Below are positions 15,858 to 41,475 of a stretch of DNA of 44,062 nt, one piece after another. The notes beneath the pieces are model-generated. The model worked only from the letters and a program-made list of their open reading frames with translations, was not told where the DNA came from and did not search any database. The position numbers and the translations under genes are program-made. Source of the stretch: Clostridia bacterium (GTDB lineage Bacteria > Bacillota > Clostridia > Oscillospirales > QAKW01); NCBI GenBank assembly GCA_017436525.1, contig JAFSCX010000059.1:1-44062 (forward strand), given 5' to 3'. How positions within the stretch are numbered: the stretch's first letter is position 1; every line of letters starts with the position of its first letter.

Positions 15858-16091
15858 ATGTATAAATTTTTATAATTATACTTTGCCATTCTTTTTCAGA
15901 GTATAAATATTTATAATTATACTTTATGCGAATTTTCTCCCAGTATAAAAATTTATAATTATACTTTTTGCGGTCTTTCTCAAAGTATAAATATTTATAA
16001 TTATACTTTGACACTCTTTTTCAGAGTATAAAAATTTATAATTATACTTTGACACTCTTTTTTAGAGTATAAAAATTTATAATTATAATTT
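15858..16091. repeat. AT-rich iteron-like array, six units with 41-42 bp period
   Basis: Six units of GTATAAAtATTTATAATTATACTTT-type sequence start at 15860, 15901, 15943, 15985, 16026 and 16067. Each has a conserved AT-only block of about 26 bp, plus a less conserved 15-16 bp spacer (GACACTCTTTTTCAG in two units). Inside the block lie the palindromes ATAAATATTTAT and TATAATTATA. The period is close to four helical turns, so a protein bound to each unit would lie on one face. Between the array and mnmE (16131-16224) the only feature is a GGCGTAT/ATACGCC hairpin around 16163-16180. Confidence 0.85.
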
Positions 16092-39810: not shown

Positions 39811-39884
39811 GAATAATATCTTCCCATTTCTTCCTTCTGATATTTTGATTATAATAAAAGAGAAGTCCCAAAAACCGTACTTCC

Positions 39885-39917
39885 AAGTGGTTTCAAAGTG
39901 GTTTCGAAGTGTTTTCA
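39885..39917. repeat. Three tandem 11-bp repeats upstream of recA
   Basis: AAGTGGTTTCA (39885-39895), AAGTGGTTTCG (39896-39906) and AAGTGTTTTCA (39907-39917) are consecutive. They lie 75-107 bp upstream of the recA -35 element and just before the 43-bp array. About one helical turn each, so a protein could bind on one face. Confidence 0.75.
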
Positions 39918-39943
39918 AAAAAGCCAACACTGCCAATGTTCTC

Positions 39944-40392
39944 AACACAAATGAATTGTGTCAACAATCATGTAGCCATTGTTCTCAACACAAATGATTT
40001 GTGTCAGCAATCATACTGTCATTGTGCTCAACACAAATGAATTGTGTCAACAATCATGTAGCCATTGTTCTCAGCACAAATGATTTGTGTCAGCGGTCAT
40101 GTTGTCATTGTTATTAACACAAATGATTTGTGTCAGCAATCATGCTATCATTGTTTCCAACACAAATGATTTGTGTCAGCAATCATGCTGCCATTGTTTC
40201 CAACACAAATGATTTGTGTCAGCAATCATGCTATCATTGTTTCCAACATAAATGATTTGTGTCAGCAATCATGTAGCCATTGTTTCCAACACAAATGATT
40301 TGTGTCAGCGGTCATGTTGTCATTACTTTTAACACAAATGAATTGTGTTGAGTGGAAGGTTATGATGAGGGTAACACAAATCATTTGTGTTA
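39944..40392. repeat. Palindrome array, exact 43-bp period (11 sites)
   Basis: Ten units start with an AACACAAATGATTTGTGT-like palindrome at 39944, 39987, 40030, 40073, 40116, 40159, 40202, 40245, 40288 and 40331, every one 43 bp after the last. An eleventh site at 40372-40392 is a perfect 21-bp palindrome (AACACAAAT-C-ATTTGTGTT core). Each unit also carries a conserved 25-bp tail with CAGCAATCATG...CATTGTT. The tails differ slightly between units, so this is not a CRISPR array. The last palindrome lies five bases upstream of the -35 of the following regulator gene. No reading frame spans the array. Confidence 0.95.
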
Positions 40393-40396
40393 TGGG

Positions 40397-40425
40397 TTGA
40401 TTTATGGGGGGAGGGGTGATATATT
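40397..40425 (+). promoter_or_regulatory. Promoter of the small XRE regulator gene
   Basis: TTGATT (40397-40402), a 17-bp G-rich spacer and TATATT (40420-40425) lie 24 bp before the start. The 21-bp palindrome ends five bases before the -35. Confidence 0.75.
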
Positions 40426-40449
40426 ATAAAATGAAAGGAAGTGGAACAT

Positions 40450-40761
40450 ATGGATCAAAAAGTGTTTGCACAAAGATTGAAGCAGCTGAGGGCCGCAAAG
40501 GGAGTGGACCGTCAGACCATGAGCCTGAAATTAAATCTTACCAAAAATTATATTTTTAATATAGAGGCAGGTTATGCCTATCCTTCCATGACCAATTTCT
40601 TTGCAATTTGCGCTTTTCTTGGATGCACACCGGCAGAGTTTTTTGATTTCAATCAATCCGCAGAGATGAGCAAGGAGCAGGAGCTGATTGAAGCAACCCG
40701 CAATTTCTGCACAGAGGATATGGACCATCTGATTGATTATGCCATTAAAATGAAATGGTAA
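40450..40761 (+). CDS. Small XRE-family helix-turn-helix protein
   Basis: The 103-residue protein is mostly one Cro/C1-type domain: VFAQRLKQLRAAKGVDRQTMSLKLNLTKNYIFNIEAGYAYPSMTNF. The second helix reads TMSLKLNLTKNYIFNIE, and a 40-residue helical tail follows (SKEQELIEATRNFCTEDMDHLIDYAIKMKW). The ATG at 40450 follows AAAGGAAGTGG; a GTG at 40441 is also in frame but less well placed. The gene stands immediately after the palindrome array, whose last, most perfect copy is in its promoter region. It is thus the prime candidate to bind the array. No partner gene is in the same transcript. Confidence 0.9.
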   Translation: MDQKVFAQRLKQLRAAKGVDRQTMSLKLNLTKNYIFNIEAGYAYPSMTNFFAICAFLGCTPAEFFDFNQSAEMSKEQELIEATRNFCTEDMDHLIDYAIKMKW

Positions 40762-40962: not shown

Positions 40963-41475
40963 TTATCTTCTTTTCTTTTGCACCAAAATAATGCAGGCTA
41001 TGGCTGCGAGGAGAAGCAATGGAGAAATTCTGACAAAGAACCATTCAAACACATGCAAGGCAACGCCGACGACGGCATATTCCGGATTGCTGTAGTCCCA
41101 ATGCAGATAGGGGCTATCCAAGACCAGCAGGAGAGCAAAAATGCAAAGGATAAAAACACACAAACAAATGAGGAACCAAAGGGTTCTCTTTAATTTCCGG
41201 TCCTTATTTTGGGCCAGCTGCAGGTTGATGATTTCCAGCTTTTTGGCAAGCTTTGCAAGATCATCGGCAGGAGGATCGGAAACGGGCTCTCCAAGCAAAA
41301 CGCTTACGGGTGTTTCGAGGGCTTCGGAAAGAGAGAGCAACATATTTGCATCGGGAACCGATAAACCTTGCTCCCATTTTGAGATTGTCTGGCGGACGAC
41401 TGACAGGTGAATGGCAAGCTCTTCTTGGGACAAGCCTTTGGATTTTCTGATATTTTTAATATTTTCATTTAGCAT
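40963..41475 (-). CDS. XRE-family regulator with two C-terminal membrane helices
   Basis: The 170-residue protein starts with a helix-turn-helix (NIKNIRKSKGLSQEELAIHLSVVRQTISKWEQGLSVPDANML). It continues through a charged linker and ends with two membrane segments (LWFLICLCVFILCIFALLLVL and WFFVRISPLLLLAAIACIILV) and KKRR. Such HTH-plus-membrane proteins are common in Firmicutes. They may regulate from the membrane, but targets are unknown. It is monocistronic, with good GC content for this genome, and the hairpin at 40922-40957 follows its stop. Confidence 0.88.
   Translation of the reverse strand: MLNENIKNIRKSKGLSQEELAIHLSVVRQTISKWEQGLSVPDANMLLSLSEALETPVSVLLGEPVSDPPADDLAKLAKKLEIINLQLAQNKDRKLKRTLWFLICLCVFILCIFALLLVLDSPYLHWDYSNPEYAVVGVALHVFEWFFVRISPLLLLAAIACIILVQKKRR

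Follow-up and report, generated by a model that had tools for sequence, protein, structure and literature searches.

What role could eleven palindromes play in front of the gene for a small XRE-type regulator on the chromosomes of a few uncultured Clostridia of the gut? The locus lies close to one end of a 44,062-nucleotide stretch of DNA (the window), beside recA. Ten palindromes of the AACACAAATGATTTGTGT type form a tandem array on the forward strand (39944..40348), in which the palindrome starts (39944, 39987, 40030 ... 40331) make nine consecutive steps of exactly 43 bp, as originally predicted, and the palindromes are separated by 25-bp half-conserved tails; Tandem Repeats Finder gives a period of 43, 9.7 copies and 84% matches. 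The eleventh, AACACAAATCATTTGTGTT (40373..40391, no strand assigned), is one 42-bp step from the tenth and forms a perfect 19-bp dyad just upstream of the predicted -35 box, which bears out the expectation that the most perfect unit sits at the XRE promoter. The 650 bp around the array contain seven perfect dyads whose arms measure 7 bp or more (expectation 0.2), compared with a maximum of two in 500 first-order Markov simulations of this region, and chance is excluded for the array and palindromes of the window. The tails had also been described as conserved, and they are, yet less so than the palindromes, because pairwise identity between array units is 77% in the tails and 95% in the palindromes; units 1 and 3 are identical, and certain other tails recur. 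A CRISPR array was rejected on this account, unique spacers being absent, and a type III toxin-antitoxin system (ToxIN-like) was rejected because the gene after the array encodes an XRE protein and not a ToxN-type endoribonuclease. Between the array and the recA promoter region there is also an 11-bp direct repeat, TTCAAAGTGGT, in 3.5 copies (39881-39919).

Dimers bound at 43-bp intervals had been expected to line up on one face of the helix. At 10.5 bp per turn, however, 43 bp corresponds to 4.1 turns, so that the bound faces would drift round the helix, by about 34 degrees per step and by nearly one full turn across the array; since spacings of 29, 37/38 and 53 bp are found too, alongside 41/42 and 43 bp, we reject helical phasing as a rule.

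The gene that follows (40450..40761, forward strand) encodes a 103-amino-acid protein with a lone XRE/HTH_3 domain (HTH_3 match, E 2e-10), whose recognition helix, TKNYIFNIEAG, is derived. A predicted sigma-70-type promoter, TTGATT-17-TATATT (40397..40425, forward strand; elements at 40397/40420), separates palindrome 11 from the start codon at 40450; it is a consensus match only (9/12). At 8 nt before the ATG there is a ribosome-binding-site-like AAAGGAAG (40434..40441, forward strand). The AlphaFold model has an XRE fold (pLDDT 88), and the solved structures nearest to it are a Clostridioides difficile transposon-related DNA-binding protein, C.AhdI, C.BclI, C.Esp1396I and the N-domain of SinR, among which C.AhdI, C.BclI and SinR are autoregulators. 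The controller (C) proteins C.Esp1396I, C.AhdI and C.BclI, and SinR, thus share a minimal XRE fold with the array's protein; proteins of this kind bind palindromic operators upstream of their own gene and autoregulate, the C proteins using about two operator sites, as against 11-20 here. They differ also in accompanying restriction-modification genes, none of which was found beside the XRE gene within the window; a PADLOC search for anti-phage defence returned generic HTH matches only. The reading that we favor, with a little more than even confidence, is that the XRE protein controls its own gene and that its operator has been amplified into clusters, both at that gene's promoter and at other places. 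Directly downstream, on the opposite strand, is a gene for a second XRE protein, of 170 amino acids and with a likely membrane tail (40963-41475).

The original prediction held that the XRE gene and the array form one unit, and comparison with other genomes supports this. The closest homologs of the protein (48-54% identity) are in two genomes of the same genus: RGIG3140, a goat rectum MAG that is 64% complete (G001), and RGIG4291, a roe deer colon MAG that is 98% complete (G004). Together with the protein of the window genome (G000) they make up a set of four, since G001 has two copies, the second only 69 amino acids long. The four proteins are monophyletic (support 99/95), with all members in this genus, and carry the recognition helix [TA][KN][SN]YI[FY]NIE as against the GQSxxYINNIE common among relatives. 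An array lies directly upstream of the promoter at all four genes, in three species, with 11, 18, 20 and 11 sites and periods of 43, 41, 29 and 43 bp. The array in G004 (contig C12) has 18 units AATCCAATTCAATTGGAT spaced 41 bp apart, and the two in G001 (both on C18) have 20 units TCCAATT(C/T)ATTTGGA, exactly 29 bp apart except for one 132-bp gap, and 11 units AACCAAATGATTTGGTT at 43-44 bp; one diverged unit each in the G004 array and the second G001 array was counted by eye (82- and 85-bp gaps). At about 50 other homologous genes (loci holding the same gene twice counted once), including the two next-best by profile, there was no upstream array. If an ordinary operator had been duplicated in tandem by chance at a single promoter, with no function past autoregulation, this would account for the identity of units 1 and 3 and the recurring tails, as tandem repeats arise readily at palindromes; such an origin is very improbable in view of arrays with differing sites and periods at all four clade genes and of further arrays dispersed elsewhere in these genomes.

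When a profile built from the four proteins was run against 394 genomes of the order, they themselves were the only matches below 1e-39, the next best being 4e-30; in a 391-genome sample of the class nothing outside the genus came nearer than 5e-35, and the matches at 5e-35 and 2e-34 are without arrays. A scan of 84,980 species genomes, which needs exact short peptide matches and is not exhaustive, returned only RGIG3140 and RGIG4291. Clade members are absent from most of the family, including the congener G003, which is listed as 100% complete. The array-XRE modules occupy unrelated chromosomal settings (beside recA, in a sugar-metabolism region and in a cysS/htrA region), and the recA genes of four congeners have no such neighbor. 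The expectation that array and gene would be found together in relatives therefore holds (four of four), but the linkage to recA does not, synteny not being conserved. A phage or plasmid module was also considered and rejected: a profile search of viral contigs found no relative of the clade, and the phage and plasmid matches to the protein are ordinary XREs at 30-45% identity. The tandem-core pattern matches three viral contigs.

All palindrome types share the core CAAWTNAWTTG and differ in their outer bases, which change symmetrically. In the arrays the dyad symmetry reaches 3-4 bp past the core and then fades, giving 17-19 bp. In G001, G002 (a further congener) and G004, the three outer base pairs per side vary yet stay complementary far above the shuffled expectation in de-duplicated sites (for example, 44/67 versus 21 shuffled for the second pair in G001, and 24/28 versus 9 for the third pair in G004), although shuffles overstate the significance because related copies share history; pairing of the outer arms fades after the fourth pair. 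A symmetry of 17-19 bp fits the site of an XRE dimer, and a controller protein was crystallized on a 19-bp duplex (4i8t); by itself it does not separate a protein site from a hairpin. In addition, G004 has one clade XRE protein but several palindrome types (GGC, ACA, CCC and ATC arms), so a correspondence of one protein to one site cannot explain all types. That the site sequence is specific to each species suggests a system of protein and repeats that evolves fast.

The position of the palindromes relative to the predicted start sites is similar in two of the genomes, the last two palindrome centers lying at -51/-93 in the window genome and at -52/-93 in G004; the nearest centers in G001 are at -65 for one gene and at -54 or -69 for the other. 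At each of the four genes the predicted core promoter is free of palindromes, an arrangement that, as far as predicted promoters can tell, fits upstream activation or modulation more readily than it fits simple occlusion. Judged at the level of sequence, five features are established: linkage, a single clade, this promoter geometry, enrichment of the core in the genus and symmetric variation of the outer bases.

Under the autoregulator reading, the protein would be a minimal regulator (a single helix-turn-helix domain and a C-terminal helix it can do without) that acts as a dimer on 17-19-bp palindromes, with AACACAAAT-N-ATTTGTGT as the candidate form of the site. Tandem duplication would have multiplied this operator into a homotypic cluster just upstream of the gene's own -35 box, and in intergenic regions elsewhere the same operator would have given rise to isolated sites and to clusters that are smaller or mixed. 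By occupying the cluster at the promoter, the protein would determine how strongly its gene is expressed while leaving the core promoter free, and the many other sites would form a reservoir that titrates the protein, together with nucleoprotein patches; theory of autoregulation with decoy sites exists (PMC4374843). Operator and protein would have diverged together between species, with the core CAA-N5-TTG kept. The parts of this proposal differ in strength: that the protein binds these palindromes is probable, that it feeds back on its own promoter is somewhat more likely than not, and a reservoir or nucleoprotein role for the dispersed arrays is a tentative suggestion in which our confidence falls somewhat short of even.

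Genome-wide pattern searches found 31, 257 and 74 copies of CAAWTNAWTTG in the three XRE-bearing genomes, compared with 4 and 3 in two congeners without the gene and 0-2 in reversed controls. G000, G001, G002 and G004 all show an enrichment of the core, which is lacking in G003, G005 and most of the sister genomes; G008, from a sister genus, has 20 cores versus 4 in its reversed control. In the window genome, the same palindrome forms two further arrays: seven units at 41/42 bp lie between glgP-like and CPBP-protease-like genes (C39), three units at 37/38 bp lie beside a spoIVB-like gene (C32), these gene names being read from translations, and single copies with long symmetric arms occur at C14:1259 and C32:2591. 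Neither of the two further arrays has an XRE gene, and the notion of one exclusive array per gene is therefore unsupported. Arrays in relatives lacking the XRE gene had been named as evidence against a single unit, and this was found in weak form: in G002, an assembly of 350 contigs that is 80% complete, 55 cores were counted, most of them single or paired, and a clade XRE was not detected. The dispersed clusters are intergenic; of those whose orientation could be resolved by a simple longest-ORF rule, seven lie between converging genes and one between diverging genes, and most are therefore not obvious promoter elements. Some single copies are the center of longer locus-specific inverted repeats, including terminator-like ones, which counts against the autoregulator reading because operators need not be such; we count against it also the several arm types of G004, the G002 cores and the clusters at convergent gene ends. 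One repressor with many binding sites across a genome is known from mycobacteriophage stoperators, where the sites are asymmetric, the genome is that of a phage and the repressor is monomeric (PMC9283540). In G001 there are, besides, very long mixed palindrome chains with several arm types alternating (L058 1-1570 and L059 2005-2870, with 44 and 27 palindromes counted), and no clade XRE gene adjoins them in the sequence read.

Dispersed, extragenic and palindromic copies are the hallmarks of REP/BIME elements, which are partly arrayed and associated with RAYT transposases (PMC2817692), and all three are found here. The palindromes might accordingly be structure-forming elements that spread through intergenic regions, some of them having turned into operators of a nearby XRE gene. 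The bias of the copies to gene ends, the outer arms that are complementary yet vary freely, the copies within terminator-like hairpins and the strong fold of the array RNA (z -5.2) agree with such an origin; an Rfam search of the array gave sub-threshold chance matches only and no known RNA family. We nevertheless think it unlikely: inspection of the flanks found no GTAG or CGTC tag beside the palindromes, a Y1 (RAYT) transposase was found in only one of the four palindrome-bearing genomes (G002, and not in G000, G004 or the 64%-complete G001), and a REP/BIME origin would give no reason to expect arrays at every one of the four clade XRE genes and at no other XRE homolog. A RAYT/REP origin as the whole story was rejected on the distribution of the transposase. 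Among the palindrome-bearing genomes, the one with the RAYT-like Y1 gene (G002; L152, C336) is also the only one in which no clade XRE was detected.

The closest anatomical precedent is that of a centromere, and the locus might accordingly be a centromere or anchor of the chromosome. The small protein would then bind the arrays and, with no motor involved, pair the DNA, condense it or position it, in the way suggested for StbA of plasmid R388 or as ParB does on repeats. The centromere sopC (parS-F) of the F plasmid, bound by SopB/ParB-F, consists of twelve tandem 43-bp repeats, with ten 16-bp inverted repeats in the description of PMC6238139. The StbA protein of R388 is likewise a small DNA-binding protein with sets of repeats (stbDRs) around the promoter of its gene, and other promoters contain additional copies (PMC3098194); this anatomy is present here, and each chromosome has several arrays. 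We consider this reading improbable, however. The 103-amino-acid XRE protein has no ParB, CTPase or oligomerization domain and no adjoining ATPase gene, the genome already carries ParA, ParB and a perfect parS (81-96), most of the family lacks the clade, as does even a congener that is 100% complete, and the second copy in G001 has merely 69 amino acids. Compared with sopC, the array lies upstream of the gene for an XRE protein and not a ParB, there is no ParA partner, and the chromosome has its own ParABS; compared with R388, where plasmid stability was shown, the stbDRs are plasmid-borne 9-bp direct repeats and not palindromes. A ParABS or sopC-type centromere proper was rejected, as a ParB-family protein with its ParA partner is absent beside the array and those of this genome are located, together with parS, at the opposite end of the window. 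A near-perfect parS (273-288) accompanies the perfect one beside the ParA and ParB genes. A genus-specific system for chromosome organization or inheritance that consists solely of a minimal XRE protein and the dispersed arrays of its palindrome, the two co-evolving fast, with its own site in each species and mixed arrays as relics of earlier specificities, is a speculative and rather doubtful extension.

The most that the data allow to be said is that the XRE clade and arrays of CAA-N5-TTG palindromes belong together, with a site that differs from species to species and between paralogs, and that arrays occur in other intergenic places as well. As had been stated, the literature searched yielded no description of a chromosomal system of this form, the closest report on XRE proteins with tandem palindrome arrays concerning an Xre protein of a toxin-antitoxin system that shows higher-order DNA binding. 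If a bacterial regulator has large homotypic operator arrays at its own promoter, with species-specific sites, nature would be offering an example of co-evolution between protein and site, and also of regulator titration by repeats, which the literature found treats mainly by models and synthetic circuits. The four natural protein-array pairs would allow tests of how XRE recognition helices change specificity and of whether a minimal HTH protein on arrays can organize a chromosome.

The window holds a second palindrome array, of six units GTATAAAAATTTATAATTATAC at 41-42 bp, between mnmE- and mnmG-like genes (15860-16088). The same GTATAAAAATTTATAATTATAC palindrome occurs at about seven other places of the genome, partly as arrays (C31, C50 and C54), and hardly in congeners; on C31 the palindromes come after a small XRE-like gene.
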